IMG/VR virus record: IMGVR_UViG_3300030102_006261
Coordinates: 62,001-126,000 of that record
Direction: 5' to 3' (one strand)
Source of the DNA: a virus
Length of the DNA stretch: 64,000 bases
The position numbers and the translations under genes were made by a program. Positions within the stretch are counted from its first letter, which is position 1; each line of letters begins with the position of its first letter. The notes beneath the pieces are model-generated. The model saw nothing but the letters and a program-made list of their open reading frames with translations. It was not told the origin of the DNA and made no database searches. This document shows positions 26,609 to 64,000 of this stretch, piece by piece.

Positions 26609-27793
26609 ATGCAATTCATAGTTGCCAAAAACATACACGAAAACTTACCAGTTGGTTCTGTAGTTGAGCAGGTGAATCCAACTGATCCTGATGTCACTAT
26701 ATCATTGGGATTTGGTTTGGGTGAAGTGCATGTAATAAGTGAAGGTGGTGAAATATTTCTCTTTCAGGGACCTCAAAAAACAATTAAACAGGTTTTAGAG
26801 GTTGTCTATGAAAGTAAACCAACAAAAACTTTACCACCAAAAGTTAAGGAATCTGTCACTAAACCTAAACCAGTTGTGGAGCAAGTTCAAGGTAGACCTG
26901 GTGTACCCGGACCTCCCGGTCAGAAGGGAGATCCGGGTGTCATGGGTCCGGAGGGACCGAGAGGCTTACCCGGTGCTGATGGTGCTGATGGTGCTGATGG
27001 CGTGCCCGGCCCACAGGGTGAACAGGGTGAAGTTGGACCACAAGGAGCACAGGGTGAGCCTGGTGTGCAGGGAGAGCAGGGAATCGCTGGACCTCAAGGT
27101 GAACCAGGCGCGCCCGGATCTCCCGGTTTGGATGGGAAAGATGGTGTTGATGGTAAAGATGGATTAGACGGCAAAGATGGTGTTGATGGTAAAGATGGTG
27201 TTGATGGTAAAGATGGTTTAGACGGCAAAGACGGCACTGATGGTAGAGATGGTATAGACGGAAAAGCTGGTGCAAAGGGTCAGCGTGGTCCAAAAGGTTC
27301 AAAGGGTGATCCGGGTAAGATTGGACCGAAGGGCGATCGAGGTGATGCAGGTGAAAGAGGAGAAAAGGGAGATGCAGGAAAAGATGGTGAAGCTCCTGTA
27401 ATGAGAGCTAAATTCCCTCTTAAACTCGAAGAGGATGGTGTGTTGTCATTCGACAGAGTTTCTTTGGACAACTTACTTCGAGTTAGTTCTGGTACAAACG
27501 GTCCTGACTATGCCGCCGTGAATGACTGGTTGGCAGCAGCGGGTGGTGCGGTTGGTATTAGAAAAGATGGTAATCTTTTAATTAGTTCCGTTAGTGATAT
27601 GAAGTTTCGTGGTATAAATATGAATGTAACACTACAAGGAAAAGATGTGGATCTAACCTCTGGTGTGTATATTTCAGACACTGATCCTACCACAGAGGGT
27701 GTAGAGACTGTGTCAGGCGAACTTTGGTTTGATACAAGCGGCGGGGGCGGAGTTTTAAGAATGAGAAACGTTAACGAATGGTTTGAAATCTAA
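26609..27793 (+). CDS. Collagen-like tail fibre protein
   Basis: 394 aa. Residues 95-262 are 56 unbroken Gly-X-Y triplets, first of the GPP/GEP type, then the hexapeptide run G-x-D-G-K-D and finally basic triplets. A non-repetitive N-terminal domain (1-94) and a C-terminal domain of about 130 aa flank the collagen rod. The C-terminus ends SGELWFDTS...NEWFEI, the tail-protein module also seen at 3079. It should form a trimeric fibre. There is no gap after the GT2-TPR gene, and the stop overlaps the next start (TAATG). Confidence 0.85.
   Translation: MQFIVAKNIHENLPVGSVVEQVNPTDPDVTISLGFGLGEVHVISEGGEIFLFQGPQKTIKQVLEVVYESKPTKTLPPKVKESVTKPKPVVEQVQGRPGVPGPPGQKGDPGVMGPEGPRGLPGADGADGADGVPGPQGEQGEVGPQGAQGEPGVQGEQGIAGPQGEPGAPGSPGLDGKDGVDGKDGLDGKDGVDGKDGVDGKDGLDGKDGTDGRDGIDGKAGAKGQRGPKGSKGDPGKIGPKGDRGDAGERGEKGDAGKDGEAPVMRAKFPLKLEEDGVLSFDRVSLDNLLRVSSGTNGPDYAAVNDWLAAAGGAVGIRKDGNLLISSVSDMKFRGINMNVTLQGKDVDLTSGVYISDTDPTTEGVETVSGELWFDTSGGGGVLRMRNVNEWFEI
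27125..27250 (+). repeat. 18-bp tandem coding repeat in the collagen-like gene
   Basis: Seven units of 18 bases encode the hexapeptide G-(L/V/T)-D-G-(K/R)-D. Units such as GGTGTTGATGGTAAAGAT are nearly identical, so the number of copies may vary by slippage and change the fibre length. Confidence 0.85.
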
Positions 27794-31286: not shown

Positions 31287-33809
31287 ATGCAAAATTTTTA
31301 TACTAATGTTTCGCTAGTTGGGGATGGTATTCTCTATCGGGCGGTGGAGAACGGTGTATCCGTGAAGAGAGTTGTCAAGTATCAACCAACTCTCTTTGTT
31401 CCATCCAATAAAGAAACTAAATTCAAAACTCTTGATGGAAAGTTTGTTGAACCAATAAATCCTGGTCATATTTCCGATTGTCGTGAGTTTGTAAACAAGT
31501 ACAAAGATATTCCTAATTTTAATATTCATGGCAACACAGACTACGTTTATCAGTACATTGGTGACGAATTCGCAGATGAGGTTGACTATGATATGAATAA
31601 GATCGTAGTCGCTCATATCGATATCGAAACTCAATGTGAGCACGGGTTCCCCCAAGTCGATGATCCTCAAGAGGAAGTGATTGGTATTACACTTTCTGTT
31701 AATCGTAAAAAGTATGTTTTAGGATTGGGTGATTTTAACATTGATGGTGTTGATTGTAGAAACTATGAACACGAGGAAGATCTTCTTGCCGACTTCTTAG
31801 ATATTTGGAAGAGTGAACACCCAGACATCGTGACTGGTTGGAACATTAAGTTCTTTGATATTCCATACCTTGTCCAGAGAATGAACAAACTTCTTTCCCC
31901 GATGGAAACATCTAATCTATCACCTTGGAAAAAGATTCGTGAAAAATTTATTGAGAGATCAAGTAAAAAGCATCGAACATTTCAAATTCTTGGTGTGTCT
32001 ATCCTTGATTATCTGGATTTGTATAAAACATTCACATATACAAATCAGGAGTCATATAGACTTGATCATATTGCTTTTGTTGAACTTGGAGAACGAAAGT
32101 TGGATTATGGTCAATATGAGACTATTCGAGATTTTTATCGAAATGATTTTCAGAAGTTTATGGAATATAATGTTCGAGATGTTGAACTGATTGAAATGCT
32201 CGAAGATAAGATGAAACTCCTAGAACTCGCACTTGCACTCGCCTATTCTGCAAAGGTCAATTATGAGGATGTCTTCTCACAAGTGCGAACTTGGGATCAA
32301 ATTATCTACCACCACCTGAGAAAGGATAATATCGTAATCCCACCCAAGAAGGGTGGTAAGAAAGATGAGCAGTACGTTGGAGCATATGTTAAGGATCCGA
32401 TCACGGGTATGCATGACTGGATTGTTTCTTTTGACTTGAATAGTCTGTACCCTCACCTAATCATGCAGTATAACATCAGCCCGGAAACTATGATCCATCA
32501 AATGCAGGATCATATTATCACACCCAATGCTATTCTTGGTGAGCAATCCAACCATTTGAAGCAAGCGTTAAAAAAGCACACCGATAAAAATTATTCGGTG
32601 GCGGCAAACGGTACTTGTTACAGCCGAGATACTCGTGGGTTCCTTCCAAAGCTTATGTCTAAGATGTATGACGAACGTAAAGCGTACAAGAAGAAGATGA
32701 TCGAGTGTCAGAAACAAAAAGAAAAAGATCCCAGCAATAAGAAGCTCGACTTTGAGATTGCAAAATACAATAACTTCCAGATGGTTCGTAAGATTCAATT
32801 GAACTCAGCTTATGGTGCAATCGGAAATCAGTACTTCCGGTATTACGCCACTGATATGGCTGAAGCAATTACAACTTCTGGTCAATTAAGCATTCGGTGG
32901 ATCGCGGACAAACTCAATGAATTTTTAAATTCTACTGTTGGAACAGACGGATACGATTATGTTGTTGCATCAGATACAGATTCAGTTTATATTCGTCTTG
33001 GTAAATTGGTGGATAAGTTTTTAGATAAAGACTCTGTTGACACGGATAGAATTATTAAATTCTTGGATGACAGTTCTGAAAAAATCATTCAACCTTTCAT
33101 TGACAAGCAATATGACGAACTATGTAAAATGATGAACGCATATGAAAACAAAATGCAGATGGGTAGGGAGGTTATTGCGGAGAGAGGTGTTTGGACCGCC
33201 AAGAAACGATATGCTCTTAACGTTTGGGACTCTGAAGGTGTTCGTTACGAGAGTCCAAAACTCAAGATCATGGGGATTGAAACCACTAGAAGTTCAACTC
33301 CGGCAGTTGTGAGACAAAAACTAAAAGAGGCAATCCGTCTTATTCTAACCACGGATGAAAAGTCTATACAAAATTTTGTGCATGATTTCCATGAATACTT
33401 CTTTGCTCTAGATCCAGATGAAATCGCCTTCCCTCGAAGTGTTTCTAATCTGGAGAAGTACTCTTCTTCTTCTGACATCTACAAAAAGGCTACACCAATC
33501 GCAGTTAAGGGATCACTAATTTACAATCATTTCATAGAGGGTAAAAACTTATCATCCAAGTATGAAAAAATTCAAGAGGGTGATAAAATTAAGTTCATCT
33601 ATCTAAAAGAACCAAATCCAATTGGTGGTGGTAGAGGTGATAAGGTAATATCTTTCCCAACAAAATTACCAAAAGAACTAGATTTACACAGGTTTGTAGA
33701 TTATGATAAGCAATTCAACACGAGTTTCTTGGATCCACTTGAGAATATTCTAAATGTGGTTGATTGGAAGTCCAAACAGGAAGCTTCTTTGGAGGATTTT
33801 TTCTCATGA
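31287..33809 (+). CDS. gp43: DNA polymerase, family B, gp43
   Basis: 840 aa (T4: 898). Exonuclease motif I is AHIDIETQ, with Asp112 and Glu114 at the same numbers as in T4; exo II is TGWNIKFFDIPYL (Asp191); exo III lies in YNVRDVELIEML. The polymerase motifs are SFDLNSLYPHLIMQYN (A), KIQLNSAYGAIGN (B) and ASDTDSVY (C, the two metal-binding Asp). The C-terminal EDFFS probably binds the clamp. The whole enzyme appears intact. Its distance of 25 kb from regA is unlike T4. Confidence 0.97.
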   Translation: MQNFYTNVSLVGDGILYRAVENGVSVKRVVKYQPTLFVPSNKETKFKTLDGKFVEPINPGHISDCREFVNKYKDIPNFNIHGNTDYVYQYIGDEFADEVDYDMNKIVVAHIDIETQCEHGFPQVDDPQEEVIGITLSVNRKKYVLGLGDFNIDGVDCRNYEHEEDLLADFLDIWKSEHPDIVTGWNIKFFDIPYLVQRMNKLLSPMETSNLSPWKKIREKFIERSSKKHRTFQILGVSILDYLDLYKTFTYTNQESYRLDHIAFVELGERKLDYGQYETIRDFYRNDFQKFMEYNVRDVELIEMLEDKMKLLELALALAYSAKVNYEDVFSQVRTWDQIIYHHLRKDNIVIPPKKGGKKDEQYVGAYVKDPITGMHDWIVSFDLNSLYPHLIMQYNISPETMIHQMQDHIITPNAILGEQSNHLKQALKKHTDKNYSVAANGTCYSRDTRGFLPKLMSKMYDERKAYKKKMIECQKQKEKDPSNKKLDFEIAKYNNFQMVRKIQLNSAYGAIGNQYFRYYATDMAEAITTSGQLSIRWIADKLNEFLNSTVGTDGYDYVVASDTDSVYIRLGKLVDKFLDKDSVDTDRIIKFLDDSSEKIIQPFIDKQYDELCKMMNAYENKMQMGREVIAERGVWTAKKRYALNVWDSEGVRYESPKLKIMGIETTRSSTPAVVRQKLKEAIRLILTTDEKSIQNFVHDFHEYFFALDPDEIAFPRSVSNLEKYSSSSDIYKKATPIAVKGSLIYNHFIEGKNLSSKYEKIQEGDKIKFIYLKEPNPIGGGRGDKVISFPTKLPKELDLHRFVDYDKQFNTSFLDPLENILNVVDWKSKQEASLEDFFS

Positions 33810-39222: not shown

Positions 39223-42200
39223 ATGCCTTTTCATGGTGGATTTGGTCAAGACCAAGATGTTGTAAATCCTGAACTTTACTTAAAACGTTATGTTGAGGGT
39301 GATATCTATTCTGGTGCGGTGTTACTAAACGAAAGTCCAACTTCGGTTGATGCTACTCAATATGAATACAGTCTGAGTGTATTCTCCAACATGTTCTCTG
39401 GAGCAAACTCTGATTTTTTCTCAGCGGATGAATGGCCGATAGAACTACCAAACTCAAATGGACTTTTTCAGTTTACTGGTAAACTGGGATCCTCCACTAC
39501 TGCGTTTAAGCAACTTGGCTTTGCGGGACGAAACTTTACCACTGTAGGATTTGATTCTAACTCTGATGGGGTGATTGACAATCCTGTTAGTTCATATAGA
39601 TATAATTTTTCTACAATAAATGAGATCTCTCCTATTCAGACCTTACCGGGTGTTAATTTATCTTACGATCCAGTTGAGTCTAGTGCTGTTACAAGATTTA
39701 CTTATAATCGGGCGTTTCCTGAATTTGCTAGTACAGACTTATATACTACACTCTCAGAGAGAATCCCAAGACGGCCGAAATACTATAAGTATGGAATGTA
39801 CTATGATACATCCGAAAACGAAATGCGAAGTATAAAAGAGCAGTCTTTTGCTTGTGGATTCGACAACGGATTTTATGTTGATCAAGAGGGTAAGATAAAA
39901 GTGATGAGTCAAGGTTATGAATTTGCTCGCTCCGCACCAATTTTTGGTATATTTTCTTTCATGGACAAATTTTTGTTTAATGAAAATGGTATAGAAACAG
40001 CTACAGAATATAATAGTGTTTTTGATCCATCATCTGAGTATTTTATACCAGAGGGAGTTGACTGGGAGTATGATTCAAGTGAGGGGCCTTTTCTTGGACT
40101 AGATCATAACGCTAGGATGACTAAGTACCTAAATGAGCCTTACGCAAATGTTGCACATTTAATTAGGTTGTATTTAAATAGAAAATTCTTTGATAAGATG
40201 CTGGAGCAGTTACCAGAGTGGTCACATCTATGCTCCGTTATTCAATATTATGACGAAGACTTGGAAATAAAATCTATTGCTATGGCAGCGAATGATGCTG
40301 CTATCTTATTGGACACTGAGGGAAAAATACACGTAATCAGTAACGCAGGTAAAACTTCCAGTACTACCACCGATGTAAGTAGCTGCTCTTACGGCGCCGC
40401 CCGTGATTTAGTTCAGCATCTTATGGTTTACTACCCCGAAAAATATAGAAAACAAGATTGGAATCAATATTTAGATTCCAATGGTGTACCAGAAGATCTA
40501 GGCTCTTTCCCATACATGAGTTCTGAAAAATATTTTTGGGTCGATGACACTGGAGAATTGGTCGATACTGAGGATGTAAAGTTTGTATCTGTGCAGGCTG
40601 ATGGAGGATCTCTTCCGGGAGAAGGTGTCACTTTTCTTGCGATAGATGATCAGGGTAAAGTGTATGCTCGTGAAATAAAGAGCACGATGACATATGAACC
40701 GGTTAGGGTGAATATTCCAGCGACAAATGGAGAGGGTTATAGACGTTTCATAGAGAGACCTAAATACTCGTCATACAGTTCATCTGGGCTACCATCTTCG
40801 GAGCTACATCCTGAATTCATGAAGGGTGGTGAGTTCATAGACTCGACTGGTGGTCGAACAAGATCACAACCAACGCTGGGTTTCGACGACTTCACTGATC
40901 TGCTTGAGGATGTCTTCAATGATATTGGATACGCTTATCCATCTGATCCCACAAATCCCAATGCAGAAAACATTCCGTTCTTTGATCCCAGAGTTCGTGA
41001 AAGGTATGATAGATTCTTGTTGAATGGTGATCCACACCGAGTGGCTGCTCGTTATAGGGACATCACAAATCCCGCAAGTGTAATGATCAATCCGGAAACA
41101 GGGAATATTCTTCATACAGATAATTCAATTATGAGATTTTTGGCATCGAGTCTGAGAGAAATACCTCTAGACGCTAATGGAAATAGGTGTCGTGTTTTAT
41201 CACTTACGGACACCTTTGAGCACTTGAGTGCCGTTTTGTATGTAGATGTTAGTGGTAGGAGTCATGCCACTCTACCCGATGATCCTGGTCCTCTGAATAT
41301 TGACGCAGAAACGGAGGTCATACCAAACGGTAGGATAGGAATCACTCATATCGGGACAATGCAACTGCGCAATGGTAATTTGATGACTTTTCTTTCCAAG
41401 AAACTGTCTCCAAGATTGCTTGTAAAAACTTTTGATCAAAATAAAGATCCCCTTGACCCATCTTTATATGAGTATATTGATAATACGTCAACGTTTGAAG
41501 ACAAAACTATGTCTTTTGATATAGCCACGTATCGTAAATTATTTTTACGAGAGGTTGACGGTAATGAGCACTATATTCCACCTAGAAATATAGGTGGTAC
41601 TCGATCTGGAGTGGTGATACACTCAAACAATGATAAAATAGCTTATATTACGGCTAGACAGTGGAAAGGTTCTGAATTTGATCCACCACAGATACAGAAT
41701 CTACAAGGGCAGGTAGCAGAACTACCCGGTCAAGTACGATCAATATCAGCGTTTAGTGTCCCTCATCCATTATACTTTAGGACACGACCTCGGGCTAGTG
41801 GAATAGATGATATTGTTCCAGATTATGAGCCGTGGAGAAGTTATAATAACTTTACTTCTTTTAATCTGATGTATAATCGAGGTAATCTTATGGCAAACAT
41901 GTTCCTCCCAAACAATAGAGTTAATTATAGTTTTAATAACATACAACAAACATGGGATGATAAAATATACCCCGCATACTCAGATCCCCTGTATGACAAG
42001 ACAAATGGAATTCCAATGATGGGATCTCTAAATGGGTTCAACGGTACATTTTTCAATGCATACGCTTCAGCATACCCCGGATTGTGCAATCCTCCAATGA
42101 TTTTTCCAGACGCAGTACCCGGTCCCGCTGACAGCCCCACCCCTCTTTTAGGCTATTTACCCGGCATTCCACCACATGAACCTGGCGGAATTGTCCCGTA

Positions 42201-43143
42201 TTATACAGGGTGGTATCCTGATGGTATTGAGTCTGGTGGTGGACAGCAATATGGTAGGCCTGGCGCTTTCTACGGTAACCTAGCACAAACTGATGGGCTT
42301 GCTGTAGATTTTGATTATATAGATTCTTTGATGGGTGGTAATGGCGAAGAGCGTTTCCTAGACATAACACACTACGATGTGGATGAGGAGGGGACAGTTG
42401 GTGAGGCATTAGTTGACTATAAAAAAGGTTTTTCATTCTGGGCCAACACTGGACAACTTCCCACCACTATCCCAGAGGAATATACAAGTGATCCACTGTA
42501 TATGAAAGATTGGCGTATACCGAATGTGGTTAACGAAAAAGCCTTTATTGATGAATCAAATGTAGAGTGTATCCCATACCCAGATTCTGTGGGTAGAGAG
42601 TACCTACGAAACTCCGATTACACTTTGAATTCTGCAAATCTTTTAATTGTTGACTCTGCAAATTTAGCCGATAATAGTGGAAGAACAATTGAATATGCCA
42701 CAGCACACGCTGACGTTTATTATATTGTCTTGAGTGATGGAACGTGTCGTGGTATGTCTTATCGAGTGGACGATTCTGACAGTTTAATTTGGTATCCTGC
42801 TAGGGGTCCTTTTGATCAGGATGTTACTCAACCTAGAATTGGATTATCTAGACCTACTAGTGCGTCTTTAGATAGAGAAGCTGGTGTTAGATTAAGAACT
42901 TATGGTCCTCCTCCAAAACCAAAACCAAAAAGCTCAGAATCTGAGACACCACCAGCGGCACCACCAGTGACACCACCAGTGACACCACCAGTGACACCAC
43001 CAGCGGCACCTCCCGCTGTACCACCAGCGGCACCTCCGCCACCAGCGGCACCTCCACCACCACCAGCGGCACCTCCGCCACCACCAATGTCACCACCACC
43101 ATCCCCACCATCTTCAGGTGGCGGTGGAGGATACGGATATTAA
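39223..43143 (+). CDS. Giant virion protein with RCC1-like repeats and Pro-rich tail
   Basis: 1306 aa. Several segments follow the RCC1 / beta-propeller blade pattern, for example AAILLDTEGKIHVISN (about 363-378), TFLAIDDQGKVYAREIKS, AVLYVDVSGRSHATLP and YIVLSDGTCRG. The final 75 residues are PP-A/V-A-PP repeats ending SSGGGGGYGY. No enzyme motif is seen. It lies in the late operon and is probably a long host-contact protein on the tail. The Pro-rich arm could act as a flexible spacer. The GGGYG ending recurs in the Cys-rich protein at 62976. Confidence 0.65.
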   Translation: MPFHGGFGQDQDVVNPELYLKRYVEGDIYSGAVLLNESPTSVDATQYEYSLSVFSNMFSGANSDFFSADEWPIELPNSNGLFQFTGKLGSSTTAFKQLGFAGRNFTTVGFDSNSDGVIDNPVSSYRYNFSTINEISPIQTLPGVNLSYDPVESSAVTRFTYNRAFPEFASTDLYTTLSERIPRRPKYYKYGMYYDTSENEMRSIKEQSFACGFDNGFYVDQEGKIKVMSQGYEFARSAPIFGIFSFMDKFLFNENGIETATEYNSVFDPSSEYFIPEGVDWEYDSSEGPFLGLDHNARMTKYLNEPYANVAHLIRLYLNRKFFDKMLEQLPEWSHLCSVIQYYDEDLEIKSIAMAANDAAILLDTEGKIHVISNAGKTSSTTTDVSSCSYGAARDLVQHLMVYYPEKYRKQDWNQYLDSNGVPEDLGSFPYMSSEKYFWVDDTGELVDTEDVKFVSVQADGGSLPGEGVTFLAIDDQGKVYAREIKSTMTYEPVRVNIPATNGEGYRRFIERPKYSSYSSSGLPSSELHPEFMKGGEFIDSTGGRTRSQPTLGFDDFTDLLEDVFNDIGYAYPSDPTNPNAENIPFFDPRVRERYDRFLLNGDPHRVAARYRDITNPASVMINPETGNILHTDNSIMRFLASSLREIPLDANGNRCRVLSLTDTFEHLSAVLYVDVSGRSHATLPDDPGPLNIDAETEVIPNGRIGITHIGTMQLRNGNLMTFLSKKLSPRLLVKTFDQNKDPLDPSLYEYIDNTSTFEDKTMSFDIATYRKLFLREVDGNEHYIPPRNIGGTRSGVVIHSNNDKIAYITARQWKGSEFDPPQIQNLQGQVAELPGQVRSISAFSVPHPLYFRTRPRASGIDDIVPDYEPWRSYNNFTSFNLMYNRGNLMANMFLPNNRVNYSFNNIQQTWDDKIYPAYSDPLYDKTNGIPMMGSLNGFNGTFFNAYASAYPGLCNPPMIFPDAVPGPADSPTPLLGYLPGIPPHEPGGIVPYYTGWYPDGIESGGGQQYGRPGAFYGNLAQTDGLAVDFDYIDSLMGGNGEERFLDITHYDVDEEGTVGEALVDYKKGFSFWANTGQLPTTIPEEYTSDPLYMKDWRIPNVVNEKAFIDESNVECIPYPDSVGREYLRNSDYTLNSANLLIVDSANLADNSGRTIEYATAHADVYYIVLSDGTCRGMSYRVDDSDSLIWYPARGPFDQDVTQPRIGLSRPTSASLDREAGVRLRTYGPPPKPKPKSSESETPPAAPPVTPPVTPPVTPPAAPPAVPPAAPPPPAAPPPPPAAPPPPPMSPPPSPPSSGGGGGYGY
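42946..43090 (+). repeat. Degenerate repeat coding for the Pro/Ala arm
   Basis: Units of 12-15 bases built from CCACCAGCGGCACC and CCACCAGTGACA encode PPAAPPVT-type steps. The copies are close to identical in DNA, so copy-number change by slippage is likely. Confidence 0.75.
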
Positions 43144-45470: not shown

Positions 45471-46499
45471 ATGATTAATATTGCAACTATTCTTCTTTCT
45501 GCACCTCTCATGAGTGGTGCAGCGGAAAACGTTAACGTTCATGAACTCATCATGGGGGTTCGCGAAGATTCTGCAACTCGCATGAGTCTTCGGGGTGACG
45601 ACAGTCCCGTTACTGTCGATGTTTCTGGTTTCCTTCAGTTCCGTTATCTTTACAATGATGCCGGCTCGAATGAAGCCACCAGAGGATTTGACATTGATCG
45701 TGCCCGGATTAAGTTTTCGGGTGAAGCGTATGAATTTGGATATGCGATCAGTGGACAGTGGAGTGATACTGAGTTTGAACTCAAGGATGCGTTCCTCACC
45801 AAGAACATTGGTGGGTTTGATGTCAAGGCGGGGCAGTTCGTAACTAGTTTCTATAACGGTTACGTCTCTGATCCAACCACGCTTGTGACTGGTGACTACA
45901 GCATCACTGCTCTAACTTATGGACAGGGTTACTCGCAAGGTATTGAAGTTAGCAGAGAGTACGATTCTTTCTCATTCTACGCATCATATAACGATGGCTT
46001 CAACACCGACAACAGTAGCTTTGGTGACAATGACTATGGAGTCAGTGGACGAGTGGAATTTACTGGTATCGATAACGTGACTCTTGGTGGTGCATTTGCA
46101 AATGAGCAGACTGCAACTGAGAGCTATGATACTTACACGTTTGATGCCAGTTTTGATTTTGATGAGTTTGTATTTGATGCTGCGTATGTCGCATCAAATC
46201 GTGTTGAAGATAGCTGGAACAACTACTCCATTGTTGGCACTGCCAGCTACGTCATGAGTTCTGATTTCCAGATTTTTGGACAATACGAGTATGGTGTCAT
46301 GGAAGGTGCCATGTCTGATCTGAATATTGGAACAATTGGTGCGAATATTATCTTCAACCCCAATGTTCGTTGGACTAACTCTTTTGGATATGCGTTTAAC
46401 GCTGTCGATGGTGGATACAACCTGTCCGACACTGGATGGGAAAGCTCCTCTACCGACGGTCAGTATGTCATCAAGAGTATGTTGACTATCAGTTTTTGA
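45471..46499 (+). CDS. Outer-membrane porin (OprO/P-like beta-barrel)
   Basis: 342 aa, AAAGGAG site before the ATG. The first 18 residues are a signal peptide-like stretch (NIATILLSAPLMSGAA) with few basic residues. VDVSGFLQFRYLYND, RGFDIDRARIKFSGEA and VKAGQFVTSFYNG follow the phosphate-selective porin pattern. Alternating strands run to the final Phe (MLTISF), the signal for the outer-membrane assembly machine. A porin is a cellular type of gene and rare in phages. It may change nutrient uptake of the infected cell or block a receptor. The region is more GC-rich by eye than the rest. Confidence 0.85.
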   Translation: MINIATILLSAPLMSGAAENVNVHELIMGVREDSATRMSLRGDDSPVTVDVSGFLQFRYLYNDAGSNEATRGFDIDRARIKFSGEAYEFGYAISGQWSDTEFELKDAFLTKNIGGFDVKAGQFVTSFYNGYVSDPTTLVTGDYSITALTYGQGYSQGIEVSREYDSFSFYASYNDGFNTDNSSFGDNDYGVSGRVEFTGIDNVTLGGAFANEQTATESYDTYTFDASFDFDEFVFDAAYVASNRVEDSWNNYSIVGTASYVMSSDFQIFGQYEYGVMEGAMSDLNIGTIGANIIFNPNVRWTNSFGYAFNAVDGGYNLSDTGWESSSTDGQYVIKSMLTISF

Positions 46500-46520
46500 T
46501 ATATAAAGTTATATAATGAG

Positions 46521-46547
46521 GGACTGGATCACCCTCTATCCGTGTGC
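46521..46547 (+). repeat. Intergenic element, copy 1, resembling the 16S rRNA 3' end
   Basis: 27 bases, 26 of them identical to 55590-55616. It contains CTGGATCACC (46524-46533), the sequence that ends bacterial 16S rRNA before the anti-Shine-Dalgarno, here followed by CTCTATCC. GGAT and ATCC (46526-46529, 46538-46541) can close a hairpin around the C-rich loop. GAGGG just before (46518-46522) could pair with CCCTC (46532-46536). TATAAT at 46512-46517 lies immediately upstream, and a strong terminator follows. Confidence 0.75.
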
Positions 46548-46574
46548 AAGAGGGGACTTTAAAGTCCCCTCTTG
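46547..46574 (+). terminator. Rho-independent terminator after the porin
   Basis: Perfect 28-base palindrome: CAAGAGGGGACTTT joined to its exact reverse complement, then TTATTT on the plus strand. The stem is 12-14 bp. It ends the porin transcript and would also end any short RNA starting near 46524. Confidence 0.85.
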
Positions 46575-46710
46575 TTATTTAATAATTTGTTACTATTTTT
46601 ATATTTTTTATTTTGTAGTGAACACTTTTTCTTGTAATATTGATTACTGGCATCGTGTGTCTCCCTTGCAAGTATTTATGTTATATAAGTACTTGTGAAG
46701 GGAAATATGT

Positions 46711-47277
46711 ATGATTGTAGCGGGAATCGATTATTCATTGTGCGGACCAGCGATCTGTGTATTTAAGGGTGAAGACTTGGATGTGTTTTCATTTAGTAAA
46801 TGTAAATTTTACTATCTGACAGACACTAAAAAATATGCAAAAACTTTTCTTACTAACATACACGGAAGTGTTTTTGAAGAGTATAATCATGATTGTGAGC
46901 GTTACGACACAATTTCCTCTTGGGCGGCTGATGTGTGTTACGGATGTGAACAAGTTGGACTAGAGGGATATGCATATGGAGCTAAGGGTAGAGTATTTCA
47001 TATCGCAGAAAACACTGGTATATTAAAGTACAAATTCTTTCAGAATAATATTCCAGTTGAAGTAATAACTCCATCTGAAGTTAAGAAACGTGCATGTGGG
47101 AAAGGTAATGCAAACAAAGCGGATATGCACAGTGCCTTTCGAAAAGACACTGGATATGATTTGACTAAAATAATGACACCAGATAAAAAAGAAGTTACGA
47201 ATCCGGTGTCTGATATTGTCGATGCTTACTATGTTTGCAAATGTTTGCACGATAACATAAAATATACACTGATTTAA
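46711..47277 (+). CDS. RuvC-like Holliday junction resolvase
   Basis: 188 aa. RNase H fold: GIDYSLCGPAICVF with Asp7, VGLEGYAYGAKGR with Glu85, ITPSEVKKRACGKGNANK, and NPVSDIVDAYYVCK with Asp168 and Asp171. These are the four acidic residues of RuvC-type resolvases. It probably trims branched DNA before packaging, a job done in T4 by gp49, which is unrelated. GAAGG precedes the start. It is the last plus-strand gene and faces the minus-strand block. Confidence 0.85.
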   Translation: MIVAGIDYSLCGPAICVFKGEDLDVFSFSKCKFYYLTDTKKYAKTFLTNIHGSVFEEYNHDCERYDTISSWAADVCYGCEQVGLEGYAYGAKGRVFHIAENTGILKYKFFQNNIPVEVITPSEVKKRACGKGNANKADMHSAFRKDTGYDLTKIMTPDKKEVTNPVSDIVDAYYVCKCLHDNIKYTLI

Positions 47278-47339: not shown

Positions 47340-49172
47340 TTACTCCGTTTGTGTAAAGTAAACGCCAGTGATGGGACACCACCACGGGTCGTTTGGTCCG
47401 AAAGGATTCTCGAATACGTCATCGACATTCATGTTGGAATTCCACATGAGTTCGTCTGGACCATAGAAAGTCCATGATGCACCAGCAGTCGGTGCAGGGA
47501 ACCAAGGTTGAGTCCTATCCCAATCCTCGAAACAGTCCTCAATCTTGACATTCTCGAATCGCCAGGTTTGGTTTGTTTCACTCCATGTCCACGGGCCCTC
47601 TTCGTTTCGTGAACCATCAGGATTGCTCCTGTCGAAAGTGAACGTGCTATGTCTATCGGGAAGGTTACTTTGCTTCTGGACAAGAATACAATCCTTGAAC
47701 AAGTTGTTCTTCGCAGGACCACACCATCTCCAGATGAGAGAGACTGGACTACACTCAGGAATGCCATTTCCTCCTTGGTTTGAGAGTTGGACATTCACCC
47801 ATGCAGAGTTATGAATACCACCACCAGGCCTCTCACCGGGACAACCATGCACACCCTGCTCTCTGCAAGTATGATTGCCGTAGATGTCACGAAGAATCAC
47901 GTTCTGGTGAATGTAGTCGATACCGTTGTATTGCATGTAGTCAATGTGACATGCGGTGGGATCAATTTCACCCAAAGGATTGTGATTGGTGATTTCGATA
48001 CTCAGAAGCAACTGTGCAAAGTGCAATTCAAGTGCATCGCAAGCAACACTGTCAAGCACACAGTTACGCATAATGATGCCAGTCGTGCCTTCTTGTGTCC
48101 AAGTGTGTATGGTATCAGTCCACCACTGAAATCCACCCTTGCCTGTGACAAACATGGTTTCGGTATCCTCGCTGTAGTCGTGACCCTTGATGATACAACC
48201 ATCGTACCACCGTCCACCGTATCTCTTCGTTCCACCATTCAGAATTCTTTCCTGATCGGTATCGACGAAGACATCCTTGAGTCTGCATAGACTCTTCGTG
48301 AGAAATCCACCACCACTTGAGGTGTTCTCGTTTGCAACAATCTTACAGTCTGCCGATGCGACGCCGGGTGCCGGTGTAATCGTGAAGTATCGTCCGTTGC
48401 TTTGACGGAACGAGTTCAGTGGCCAACCGCCGCTTGCATCGATAGTGTGTTCGCCTTCGAGTAGGTAGACGGTAGTTCCACCAATCTCGGCGTATGGTTG
48501 TTGCAGACCAGAACGAAGTGCATCGTGGAGTCCCTTGTATGGGTTCTCCCGTGTGCCGTCACCATTCACATCATCACCATCGGGAGAAATATAAAGTTCT
48601 CTCGTTGGCCAGTAACCTGTATTGTTACTGAATAGGTTCACCCCGTTGTACTGGGGTAGTGGGTAGTTCTCATCGTAAACATCACGATCAAGAACGACAC
48701 TTGGGCCCATCGTGCCGAACACTTCTGCCGATACTGTAATCTTTGTGTCTGGATGTTTGCGAGTGTCAAGAGGGAACCAATACTCCATCTCACCCGTTCG
48801 AGGATTCAGAGTCATCTCCTTGACTCTAATAATTTCTGGTTTGTGTGGAACCTGATGTCCCCATGCACCAAGGAGATGAGTGATTTCTCTCCCCCCAACT
48901 CCTGCTCCCCATTGTCTCAGAAGAACAGAGAGGTCTTCCCCGTCTACAATCTCGTCGTGATTCCAATCTCCGACGTATCCTTGACGGTTGATCGTGAACT
49001 CTACACGATCTATGCCTTCTAAGTGGTAGGCGACTACTCCCACTTCAAATACACCAGTAACATCTTGCTGTGGCACAACATCAAAATATGCCATAGGGGG
49101 TTCTGTTTCTGGGGCGTAAACGGGAACGTCGCCGTTGCATAATATTGATAATCCAACCAATAAATCTAGCAT
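47340..49172 (-). CDS. Secreted beta-helix protein with dockerin-like repeat
   Basis: 610 aa from the ATG at 49172, chosen because AAGGAG stands 8 bases before it; the ATG at 49193 lacks that but would give a more basic signal peptide. Residues 1-20 are signal-like. Residues 69-89 (GDWNHDEIVDGEDLSVLLRQWG) match the dockerin-type calcium loop, and LLGAWG follows; such modules are common in planctomycete secreted proteins. YISPDGDDVNGDGTRENPYKGLHDAL opens a right-handed beta-helix that runs to the end. A polysaccharide-binding or -cutting role is likely but no catalytic residues can be named. Confidence 0.75.
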   Translation of the reverse strand: MLDLLVGLSILCNGDVPVYAPETEPPMAYFDVVPQQDVTGVFEVGVVAYHLEGIDRVEFTINRQGYVGDWNHDEIVDGEDLSVLLRQWGAGVGGREITHLLGAWGHQVPHKPEIIRVKEMTLNPRTGEMEYWFPLDTRKHPDTKITVSAEVFGTMGPSVVLDRDVYDENYPLPQYNGVNLFSNNTGYWPTRELYISPDGDDVNGDGTRENPYKGLHDALRSGLQQPYAEIGGTTVYLLEGEHTIDASGGWPLNSFRQSNGRYFTITPAPGVASADCKIVANENTSSGGGFLTKSLCRLKDVFVDTDQERILNGGTKRYGGRWYDGCIIKGHDYSEDTETMFVTGKGGFQWWTDTIHTWTQEGTTGIIMRNCVLDSVACDALELHFAQLLLSIEITNHNPLGEIDPTACHIDYMQYNGIDYIHQNVILRDIYGNHTCREQGVHGCPGERPGGGIHNSAWVNVQLSNQGGNGIPECSPVSLIWRWCGPAKNNLFKDCILVQKQSNLPDRHSTFTFDRSNPDGSRNEEGPWTWSETNQTWRFENVKIEDCFEDWDRTQPWFPAPTAGASWTFYGPDELMWNSNMNVDDVFENPFGPNDPWWCPITGVYFTQTE

Positions 49173-49252
49173 TGTAATTCTCCTTATGTACATGCCTTTG
49201 TCGAGTTGTCAAATAAATATCCCAGATAAAAACGTATCATTTTAATCGGGGA

Positions 49253-55515: not shown

Positions 55516-55545
55516 AAAAAACCGGAGAGCCCCGAGGGGCTCTCC
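55515..55545 (-). terminator. Strong rho-independent terminator
   Basis: On the minus strand GGAGAGCCCC pairs perfectly with GGGGCTCTCC (10 bp, 55524-55545), followed by GG and seven T. It ends the transcript of the small membrane protein and of the structured region at 55548-55652. Confidence 0.9.
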
Positions 55546-55547
55546 TG

Positions 55548-55652
55548 TATTCGTGTCAAGCTTTAAGGCTTTTATATTTTAAAGGGTTTGGACTGGATCA
55601 CCCCCTATCCGTGTGCTAAAGTACTTTGAAAGACCTTAACTTAACACGAATA
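55548..55652 (-). ncRNA. Candidate structured RNA or 3' UTR with long-range stem
   Basis: On the minus strand TATTCGTGTTAAG (55652-55640) pairs with CTTGACACGAATA (55560-55548): 13 bp with one G-U pair. On the plus strand the same arms give a C-A mismatch, so the minus strand is favoured. The 79-base loop holds the complement of the repeated 27-base element. A terminator follows. It may be a small RNA or a decoy end for the upstream mRNA; no protein frame is likely. Confidence 0.5.
55590..55616 (+). repeat. Intergenic element, copy 2, resembling the 16S rRNA 3' end
   Basis: Differs from copy 1 (46521-46547) at one base only: C for T at 55604. CTGGATCACC is at 55593-55602, followed by CCCTATCC. 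GGAT/ATCC can pair. It lies in the loop of the long stem 55548-55652 and is antisense to the minus-strand transcript, but in the same plus orientation as copies 1 and 3. Confidence 0.75.
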
Positions 55653-55657
55653 GTGGT

Positions 55658-55783
55658 TTAGTCCTTATTCCATGGTAAGAATTTTTTAACCCAATTCCAG
55701 AGTGGAGTACCAATTAATGCGCCTGCTGCAAAAACTACTATGGTGAAAAAGGTGGTTCCTAATATGTCGTTAATCGCTTGCAT
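55658..55783 (-). CDS. Very small membrane protein
   Basis: 41 aa from the ATG at 55783, which has AAGGAG 8 bases upstream; the longer frame from 55849 lies within the upstream gene. One membrane helix (TFFTIVVFAAGALIGTPLWNWV), then a short basic tail (KKFLPWNKD). Such minimal proteins are common in marine phages. Its role is unknown; a holin-like or toxin-like action is conceivable. Confidence 0.6.
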   Translation of the reverse strand: MQAINDILGTTFFTIVVFAAGALIGTPLWNWVKKFLPWNKD

Positions 55784-56252: not shown

Positions 56253-56632
56253 TTCGTATTTTCCATTTCACTCTTAATTCTCGTCAATAGTGTGTATGCA
56301 GCAAAAGTTCCATTTACTTCACGTTTAAATCTACTAAGTAACTTTCGTTCATCATCACCTTTCGTTTTAGACCATGAACGAAACCCCCTGTAGCTCAGTG
56401 GATATGATCTTGTTTTTCTGTACGATTGCACAAAATCAGCCAGTAATTTAGCTGCCTTGGGATTTGCATCCAATACTGATAGGAAACCAAATATTTCCCT
56501 AAACGTTTTCTTCAACAGGCCTAGATTAGATCCTATTTTTTTATCTTCTAATTTTTCGATAGCGTCCCTGAGTGCTGATCTACTGAAAGCAGATGTCTCA
56601 AAATTGACTGAAGAGATTGGTGTGTTCTTCAT
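56249..56632 (-). CDS. Unknown helical protein
   Basis: 127 aa, largely helical (RDAIEKLEDKKIGSNLGLLKKTFREIFGFL), with RGFRSWSKTKGDDERKLLSRFKRE in the second half. AGAGAG lies before the start. The first codons overlap the end of the exonuclease gene by 35 bases. No family recognised. Its position suggests it is co-transcribed with the exonuclease. Confidence 0.5.
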   Translation of the reverse strand: MKNTPISSVNFETSAFSRSALRDAIEKLEDKKIGSNLGLLKKTFREIFGFLSVLDANPKAAKLLADFVQSYRKTRSYPLSYRGFRSWSKTKGDDERKLLSRFKREVNGTFAAYTLLTRIKSEMENTK

Positions 56633-57275
56633 GGTACTCTCTTATCGTTTCATATAATTTTTTAGTATAGTCTATTGTCCTACCGCTAAAGACTTGTGAG
56701 TTACCATCTTCACAACTAATCAGTATGTGGAAGTGTGGTATCTCCTCCTTGTATATGTCTTGCCACATAAGAGCATAAGCAGTCGCTTGTAGGTAGTAAT
56801 TTTCAATGTCCCGAAGACGTTTAGTTCTCGTTGAGCCTTTGAAGTCTATGATCGATAACTTTCCATCATACTCAGCGACACAGTCCGCTCTACCAGCTAG
56901 ACCCACCTTGTCACTCCACAAACCAGTTTCTAAACCTCGTATGTTGTCTATCTTGTCTAGTTCTGGTTTTAATTGATTGAATAGTGTCAGTAAACTATCG
57001 GGAATATCGATACACTCATCAGTAATTAGAAGATTATTGTAGAGATATCGCTCGATGAGTTCATGAAACTCATTACCCCTCACTGTAACTCTCTTGGCCT
57101 CTTTTGGATTTTTTCTTCTCCAACTAGCAAAGAATTTAGACTTCTTCCAACCAGTAACCGTAGTCACGCTTGGTAGATGCTTACCAGAGGGAGAAAGATA
57201 ATATCTGCCGGTATCGGTGGTGACAGCAGATATATCTTCTAAAATCTTAGATTGTGTCACATGATTAAATGTCAT
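56598..57275 (-). CDS. PD-(D/E)XK exonuclease, MGME1-like
   Basis: 225 aa. The nuclease core reads VRGNEFHE (His71), LETGL (Glu116), GLAGRADCVAEYDGKLSIIDFKGS with Asp131, Asp144 and Lys146, and NYYLQATAYA with the conserved Gln163. This is the layout of the mitochondrial genome maintenance exonuclease 1 type. It probably trims DNA ends or flaps in phage recombination or repair. It has its own early promoter with a leaderless start and lies alone among structural genes. Confidence 0.85.
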   Translation of the reverse strand: MTFNHVTQSKILEDISAVTTDTGRYYLSPSGKHLPSVTTVTGWKKSKFFASWRRKNPKEAKRVTVRGNEFHELIERYLYNNLLITDECIDIPDSLLTLFNQLKPELDKIDNIRGLETGLWSDKVGLAGRADCVAEYDGKLSIIDFKGSTRTKRLRDIENYYLQATAYALMWQDIYKEEIPHFHILISCEDGNSQVFSGRTIDYTKKLYETIREYHEEHTNLFSQF

Positions 57276-60826: not shown

Positions 60827-60871
60827 AACCCCCACCAAAGACGGATCACCCTCTGACTAATGGTGGGGGTT
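60827..60871. terminator. Bidirectional terminator with element copy 3 in its loop
   Basis: AACCCCCACCA (60827-60837) pairs with TGGTGGGGGTT (60861-60871), 11 bp. On the minus strand ATTTTATATA follows, on the plus strand only TTTT. The 23-base loop contains GGATCACCCTCT. It separates the LysM gene from the 60000-60791 gene. Confidence 0.75.
60843..60854 (+). repeat. Intergenic element, copy 3 (core only)
   Basis: GGATCACCCTCT is identical to the core of copy 1 (46526-46537). The flanks differ: ACGGATC in place of CTGGATC, and no ATCC partner. It lies in the terminator loop, exposed for base pairing. Confidence 0.5.
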
Positions 60872-62975: not shown

Positions 62976-64000
62976 TCAAACCCCATAACCACCCCCAGCT
63001 TGTTCTCCCCCAGCTTGGGTTCCGTCAGATGAATCCTGACATATACCACTTTCACAATATGTGTCAGCCCCTTGGAATATTCCCCCACTGGCAACACATT
63101 CTTGCTCAGTTAGCCCGTCAGCACACTGAAGGGATCCATAGCAACATGCTCCGACTGGATCTGGACAAACATTTTCAAGTTGATCATCTTCGTTTCTCTG
63201 ACATATACAGCAAGGCTCATCCTCGTGCCAAGTCCAACCGGGGCGTTGCGTGCATTGAGCTTCTGTTTGTGCTTCAATGCATTCTTCATCACAACCGACT
63301 GGATCCCCACCACCACCTGCGGTCTGTGGTGTGGTCAGATTACCAACACCACCAGCGTCATCACCACATGCTGCTGGTGGACAACATGCACCGGTCTTCT
63401 GATCACAACCACACACATCAAGGCTCCGCGCTAGATCCACGCAAACTTCGTCCCAACCAATACCAAAGGCTTCACAGCATGTTGGATCAATGTCACATAC
63501 GGCACTACAGCACACTTCATCACTACAGAATGGGGTTTCATGTGCCGTACAACAAAGACCAGTGTCGGGAGATCCACAATATAGATCTTTACAGAATGGT
63601 GATGGTGATCCTGCCATATATGTCTCAAAGGCTTGAGTGCAGTTTTCATCCCAACCACCAAATCTACCGTCATTGCAATAATAGTAGAGTGGATTGGAGG
63701 AGAATGCATCACAGCATCGCTCTGCTATTGATACTGTTTCACCATCATACGTGCTAGTTCCGGGTATTGTAACTTCTTGTTGTTGCTCACATCTATCTGC
63801 GTTAGCCTCGGCTTGAGAACAGAAACAAGTTGGCCTCACAGAGGAATCATAGTCTCCAAACAGCGCACAGTCTGGTTTATCTATTTCAATGACGCAGGTG
63901 CCATATTCCTGAATCTCCCAATGTAATCTCGCATAAAATGCCTCTAAACAGTTTCTGAAACCATGACATGAACATGCATCATTGTACGGACCATTTAACG
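62976..64000 (-). CDS. Cys-rich repeat protein, planctomycete type (partial at its 5' end)
   Basis: At least 340 aa; the frame has no stop up to the window edge at 64000, so the start lies outside. Reading from the edge it begins ...CSCHGFRNCLEAF. It has about 48 Cys. Repeats: GWDENC and GWDEVCVDLA, VCCSAVCDIDPTCCEAFG, GACCPPAACG, GACCYGSLQCADGLTEQECVASGGIFQG. The GACC...C...GG pattern and the DP-x-CC...W-D-x-x-C unit are characteristic of planctomycete extracellular proteins. The end GGEQAGGGYGV resembles the end of the giant protein at 39223. Probably a virion surface protein with many disulfides. Confidence 0.75.
   Translation of the reverse strand, partial: LNGPYNDACSCHGFRNCLEAFYARLHWEIQEYGTCVIEIDKPDCALFGDYDSSVRPTCFCSQAEANADRCEQQQEVTIPGTSTYDGETVSIAERCCDAFSSNPLYYYCNDGRFGGWDENCTQAFETYMAGSPSPFCKDLYCGSPDTGLCCTAHETPFCSDEVCCSAVCDIDPTCCEAFGIGWDEVCVDLARSLDVCGCDQKTGACCPPAACGDDAGGVGNLTTPQTAGGGGDPVGCDEECIEAQTEAQCTQRPGWTWHEDEPCCICQRNEDDQLENVCPDPVGACCYGSLQCADGLTEQECVASGGIFQGADTYCESGICQDSSDGTQAGGEQAGGGYGV

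Follow-up and report, generated by a model that had tools for sequence, protein, structure and literature searches.

In this phage and related uncultured phages, a conserved hairpin copies the last bases of bacterial 16S rRNA and some of them have a second hairpin with the complement at another locus, which suggests from the sequence a viral RNA pair that would pair with itself and would perhaps also engage the host ribosome. No earlier report of such an element was found in the open literature. The window referred to here is the whole stretch of 64,000 nucleotides that was analysed, corresponding to positions 62001-126000 of a 142,160-bp IMG/VR record.

Copies of the repeat in the phage genome

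Copy 1 of the 27-base repeat (GGACTGGATCACCCTCTATCCGTGTGC) lies at 46521-46547 and copy 2 (GGACTGGATCACCCCCTATCCGTGTGC, as read on the + strand of the DNA) at 55590-55616. Direct reading of both bears out the original prediction, made from the letters alone, that they agree at 26 of 27 bases, and the 12-base core GGATCACCCTCT recurs exactly at 60843-60854 with hairpins beside all three copies, again as described. The shared plus orientation that had been claimed is correct for the DNA but not for the genes, with copy 1 lying in the sense direction and copies 2 and 3 in the antisense direction. The sequence CTGGATCACC occurs twice in the window versus an expectation of 0.13, a number that was reached in none of 100 shuffles. 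There is one more occurrence of CTGGATCACCC in the 142,160-bp record, within a coding gene. The match at record position 32137 is coding and was attributed to chance, and GGATCACCC has two sites, 15994 and 27304, each of which seems to lie in coding sequence; a gene of the rightward cluster carries collagen-like repeats in its coding sequence, with the unit GATGGT..., at window positions 27100-27450 (+).

The third copy is considered doubtful. A hairpin rich in G and C (CCCCCACCA/TGGTGGGGG, 60829-60869, - strand, by direct reading) between leftward genes has the core in its loop. The complementarity of copy 3 to copy 1 extends over 12 nt in the window, and the version found in the related record G001 (GGATCACTCTCTG) has one C/T change in the core and would have one mispair with copy 1.

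With Rfam, no family reached its gathering score over the whole window, and the matches around the copies were weak and fell far short of these thresholds. No rRNA match was found in the window, the likeness to 16S rRNA being confined to its last 10-15 bases, without helix 45 or flanking rRNA.

The phage has T4-like replication genes, namely those for DNA polymerase, UvsX-like recombinase, DnaB-like helicase and primase. Its B12-dependent ribonucleotide reductase has about 60% identity to the enzymes of other phages, marine ones among them; upstream of this gene, record G003 has an ORF of 3086 aa (L152 115-9375, +) at a place where a 1306-aa ORF is found in the window (39223-43143). A phage-encoded ribosomal protein S21 was not found, and a search for RegB gave no match in the phage, nor in the control genomes. 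Two leftward genes (47340-49193 and 62976-63839, both -) encode proteins that contain a dockerin-like motif (DWNHDEIVDGEDLSVLLRQWG) and show repeats in a cysteine-rich style, features reminiscent of Planctomycetota, which we take as a possible hint of the host.

Copy 1 behind the porin-like gene and its relatives

Copy 1 (+ strand, with orthologs in L001/L092 and L081-L085) is positioned in the 3′UTR of a porin-like gene (45471-46499, +), between the stop codon and an intrinsic terminator (46546-46575, +) with a 13-bp stem and a U-rich tail, which had been predicted right behind it. A RuvC-like gene is next (46711-47277, +; phrog_159, E-value 6e-30); in record G001, a gene for a trypsin-like serine protease adjoins RuvC (L081 11-769). 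The porin assignment comes from the L016 homolog, which matches Pfam Porin_O_P (E-value 6e-10) and aligns to the window protein with 40% identity. The 16S 3′-end-like core is presented in the loop ACUGGAUCA of a hairpin closed by GAGGG and CCCUC (46518-46536, +), identified from its fold, its conservation across lineages and G.U pairs in relatives. A 70-nt stretch including this hairpin folds 5.3 standard deviations below shuffles, with the terminator supplying most of this. Judged by its sequence, the sense RNA of copy 1 would be a 16S mimic.

TATAAT is indeed present 4-9 bases upstream of copy 1, from which an independent RNA of about 50 nt had been proposed. This part of the proposal did not stand, as there is no -35 element at a usable spacing, a promoter scan gives about as many sites as shuffles do, and relatives have TATATC or TATTATAC in place of TATAAT. 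Because a promoter near copy 1 is not conserved, a separate small RNA is unsupported, and the candidate was rejected as not above chance.

Related loci were fetched via RuvC and via the porin, and the sequence behind every porin stop codon was read. The core TGGATCAC follows the porin in the window, L092/L001, L082-L085, L090, L091 and L102 as well as in the group L016/L017/L110-L112/L114/L123, with RuvC downstream wherever reading continued. It is absent from L095, where the porin is followed by RuvC, and from porins in other contexts. In an alignment of nine porin 3′UTRs, representing about five lineages with porin identity down to about 38%, the 8 bases of TGGATCAC form the one long block that never changes and the only sequence common to all. 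Scans of genome contigs with RuvC and with the porin gave no confirmed match, and tblastn of the porin against phage GenBank records gave none.

Throughout these relatives the 16S likeness is kept, and in some lineages it is closer than in the window. The L016 group reads GCTGGATCACCTCC, the exact 16S end, with an optional further T in some, and the exact match to 16S extends over 14-15 bases in L016 and L153. L102 has TTGGATCACCTC, matching those 16S rRNAs that have TTGG at this point, for example that of Alteromonas (PMC6107228). The likeness to the 16S 3′ tail, which carries the anti-Shine-Dalgarno (anti-SD) sequence and the site of the assembly GTPase Era (PMC6107228, PMC10582724), consists of YTGGATCACC and in some copies reaches up to GCTGGATCACCTCCT. 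However, the phage core differs from the 16S tail in its position, which is a hairpin loop ahead of a terminator rather than the end after helix 45, in having an anti-SD part that is often C/T-altered, and in having no ribosomal RNA gene nearby.

In most lineages the core is within a hairpin loop just 5′ of the terminator, and the stems themselves change, being ACTCATT/AATGAGT in L090, ACTCGTTAG/TTAATGAGT in L091 and CATTAAAT/ATTTAATG in L016, while in L102 there is no clear hairpin around the core. Three single-sided changes in the copy 1 stems result in G.U pairs if the + strand is transcribed, with none broken; on the - strand these would be broken. The homologs keep TGGATCAC while flanks and stems differ, so that the 16S likeness withstands the refuting condition set in the original prediction, and this makes a structured regulatory RNA plausible. 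In the 0.99 Mb of fetched loci, TGGATCAC occurs in 11 distinct non-coding contexts, nine of which are these elements, versus a mean of 0.37 (maximum 3) for permuted 8-mers in the non-coding DNA of the same loci; as the loci were picked as relatives, the 11 against 0.37 measures conservation and not independent origin. Copy 1 of the window lineage also shares CTATCCGTGTGC with copy 2, a sequence missing in the other copy-1 lineages that may have been copied over from copy 2.

When GenBank records of phages were searched for the end of 16S, most of the matches were host rRNA or coding and one was an rRNA-operon fragment, and no further 3′UTR element was among the four phage GenBank matches opened. 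In Aeromonas phage AP1 (MT713136; L189 601-861), the 16S 3′ end is followed by tRNA-Ile and tRNA-Ala, and the segment looks like a fragment of a host rRNA operon that was carried or assembled into the phage record. In Klebsiella phage HMGUkp5 (L188 601-619), a gene with the annotation superinfection exclusion matches the end of 16S over 18-19 bases at its 3′ end; matches of this type are present in many Ackermannviridae records and may be a coding chance retained by descent.

A possible role for such a mimic, and one raised in the original prediction for a ribosomal protein, is that of a decoy, in which copy 1 RNA would titrate a reader of the 16S tail such as Era or a nuclease. Era recognises GAUCA together with CCUCC (PMC10582724), and in the phage copies GAUCA is invariant, with C/T variation in the CCUCC part. 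However, CACCTCC is replaced by CACTTTC in L090, and a decoy leaves unexplained both the 12 further bases that copy 1 has in common with copy 2 and the likely transcription of copy 2 as the complement. A decoy for a ribosomal protein or Era is possible, and as the explanation of the whole element we rate a protein decoy as quite unlikely.

Copy 2 in the leftward operon

The genes flanking copy 2 run leftward and have HNH-like genes among them. The operon with copy 2 is headed by an exonuclease gene (56598-57275, -; phrog_298, E-value 1e-58), just 5′ of which is a sigma-70-like TTGACT-16-TATAAT, and also includes genes for an HNH-like protein and for a small hydrophobic membrane peptide of 41 aa (55658-55783, -; MQAINDILGTTFFTIVVFAAGALIGTPLWNWVKKFLPWNKD). 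This peptide, taken from the ORF list and conserved in L153 and L013, ends in LIGTPLWNWVKKFLPWNKD and has no confident family. Copy 2 lies in its 3′UTR and a terminator found by scanning lies downstream (55524-55545, -). With copy 2 in the 3′UTR of a leftward operon, its sense RNA would be the complement of the 16S tail, probably GCACACGGAUAGGGGGUGAUCCAGUCC. The transcribed strand is most likely the - strand, giving an extended Shine-Dalgarno-like (SD-like) RNA, GGAUAGGGGGUGAUCCAGUC; no ATG start codon lies at a usable distance from this sequence in the window or in L153. The description of the copies as decoys is therefore incomplete, since not all of them are mimics, the likely copy 2 transcript being an SD-like complement able to pair with copy 1 or with 16S. 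A promoter on the + strand before copy 2 (CTGACA-17-TATTAT) was rejected, since it is weaker in G001, L153 lacks it and no + strand terminator comes after it.

Orthologs of copy 2 are found in L013 (record G001) and L153 (record G003), the latter with GCTGGATCACCTCCT, 15 bases that are identical to 16S. A wider search found only three lineages, a count that leaves out the short contigs L016, L091 and L102. The hairpin around copy 2 (55549-55651, -) was recognised from folds and from compensatory changes among the window, G001 and L153, and is composed of an outer stem (55549-55560/55640-55651), an inner stem (55563-55568/55634-55639) and an apical stem (55580-55587/55600-55607). On the - strand, its stems comprise 63 Watson-Crick, 7 G.U and 2 broken pairs, as against 63, 2 and 7 on the + strand. 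As the stem registers come partly from minus-strand folds, this count is somewhat biased, and L153 alone is neutral; the evidence for copy 2 consequently leans to the - strand but falls short of proof. Gene direction and terminators agree with the G.U pairs in placing copy 1 on the + strand and copy 2 on the - strand, and the strand and structure of both copies are thus supported but not proven.

It could be argued that the copies are sites for binding, recombination or replication that work at the level of DNA and in one orientation, given that they are nearly identical, that they share a single DNA orientation throughout, that HNH-like genes flank copy 2 and that a copy-2-type sequence appears to be present within the window copy 1. 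However, such sites would leave unexplained the 14-15-base match to 16S, the hairpins that are kept while their stems change, the strand bias of the G.U pairs and the place before a terminator, and a DNA element is regarded as very improbable.

Pairing of the copies and possible mechanisms

The complementarity between copy 1 (+) and copy 2 (-) covers 27 nt in the window lineage and about 17 bp in G003. Their loops, ACUGGAUC and GAUCCAGU, are complementary and could kiss over 8 bp in the window. The predicted duplex of copy 1 with copy 2(-) has an energy of -62 kcal/mol in the window, -58 in G001 and -33 in G003, with shuffled means of -18, -20 and -14, respectively. When both strands of the window were scanned for partners of copy 1, with its own complement set aside, copy 2(-) was the best at -50 versus -31 for the next. 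In G003, ACTG, which is absent in 16S, is found upstream in both copies, and the best partner of copy 1 there is the copy 2 of G003 itself (-32.7 versus -22.3 and -24.9). At all five core differences within genomes (one in the window, two in G001 and two in G003, one being shared by descent), copy 1 has T where copy 2 has C, a combination that preserves U.G pairing, although ordinary C-to-T mutation, a common change, could also account for these. Copy 2(-) is complementary to the 16S tail itself over 15-16 nt in the three lineages, each time with a predicted energy of -34 to -35 kcal/mol.

Hairpin loops that are complementary and from which a full duplex can form are known from the kissing-loop antisense pairs CopA/CopT and RNAI/RNAII, which are encoded on opposite strands of one locus. 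The phage loops are likewise complementary by sequence and folds, with the transcripts being predicted; unlike in those pairs, the copies belong to two loci 9 kb apart and both are in 3′UTRs. A plain antisense pair, in which kissing and RNase III would regulate both mRNAs, the ribosome would be uninvolved and the 16S likeness would be a relic, draws on the same duplex energies, partner scan and G.U evidence as the reading preferred below, as well as on the ACTG, foreign to 16S, that G003 has upstream of each copy and that co-varies between them. The core of such a pair should, however, drift in a compensatory manner, and TGGATCAC instead stays that of 16S across porins about 38% identical. This alternative is considered unlikely, while having an appreciable chance.

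Regulation by an anti-SD motif in a 3′UTR is a tested mechanism, exemplified by the UCCCC motif of Staphylococcus aureus icaR (PMC3868564), and copy 1 resembles it as an anti-SD-like motif in an mRNA 3′UTR, with RNase III as a likely follow-up. In this manner copy 1 could pair with the Shine-Dalgarno region of its own mRNA or with those of others, and the L016-type copies do have CACCTCC. However, the CACCCTC present in the window copy mispairs with GGAGG, and the pairing of copy 1 with neighbouring gene leaders is in the ordinary range and was set aside (RuvC -12.2, mean of 69 genes -11.9), including that with the leader of its own porin mRNA (-15.3), so that pairing of the icaR type with its own SD region was not found. 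In addition, whereas icaR pairs with its own SD region, the best partner of the phage element is another 3′UTR and its 16S match is far longer. An anti-SD regulator is considered very unlikely. Copy 2, for its part, shares features with the STAB-SD of cry3A mRNA (PMC4113751), as it is SD-like, complementary to the 16S tail and without a start codon, and is proposed to be capable of binding to the 3′ end of 16S with no translation being started. STAB-SD is in a 5′UTR and protects against RNase J1, whereas copy 2 is in a 3′UTR hairpin and has a complementary partner RNA.

Two constraints seem to act on the element, in that copies 1 and 2 remain complementary and that the core remains that of 16S over a long divergence. 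The constancy of the core points to an invariant third partner, either the tail of 16S or a protein recognising this tail, and with both constraints the simplest model is one in which copy 2 docks on the 16S tail and copy 1 competes as bait. In this preferred model, the 3′UTR of the rightward porin mRNA would carry a hairpin with a copy of the 16S 3′ tail in its loop, and the 3′UTR of the leftward operon a longer hairpin with the extended SD-like complement in its loop. These loops would kiss over 8 bp and then extend into a long duplex. We infer that both RNAs are transcribed and that copy 2 RNA would bind, or compete for, free 30S subunits via the 16S tail, with copy 1 as a 16S-like bait that would titrate copy 2 or send it to RNase III. 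L095, with porin and then RuvC and the motif missing, speaks against this model, which is our leading explanation and is put forward tentatively, at somewhat less than an even chance. Its strongest form, with copy 2 RNA seizing 30S by 15-16 bp and copy 1 switching copy 2 off, is rather unlikely.

Overall, the 16S likeness that was originally noted is upheld and a structured regulatory RNA is plausible, without support for a promoter of its own for a 50-nt RNA and with the decoy as an incomplete account. As the 16S tail is nearly universal, the idea of an RNA pair is directly testable. Phages are known to attack host translation mostly by proteins, and a viral copy of the 16S tail together with its complement would be an RNA route to doing so. 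Such an RNA pair would also constitute a compact part for ribosome sensing or titration and, if the model is true, it would mean that a virus controls translation with two RNAs whose design rests on mimicry of ribosomal RNA.
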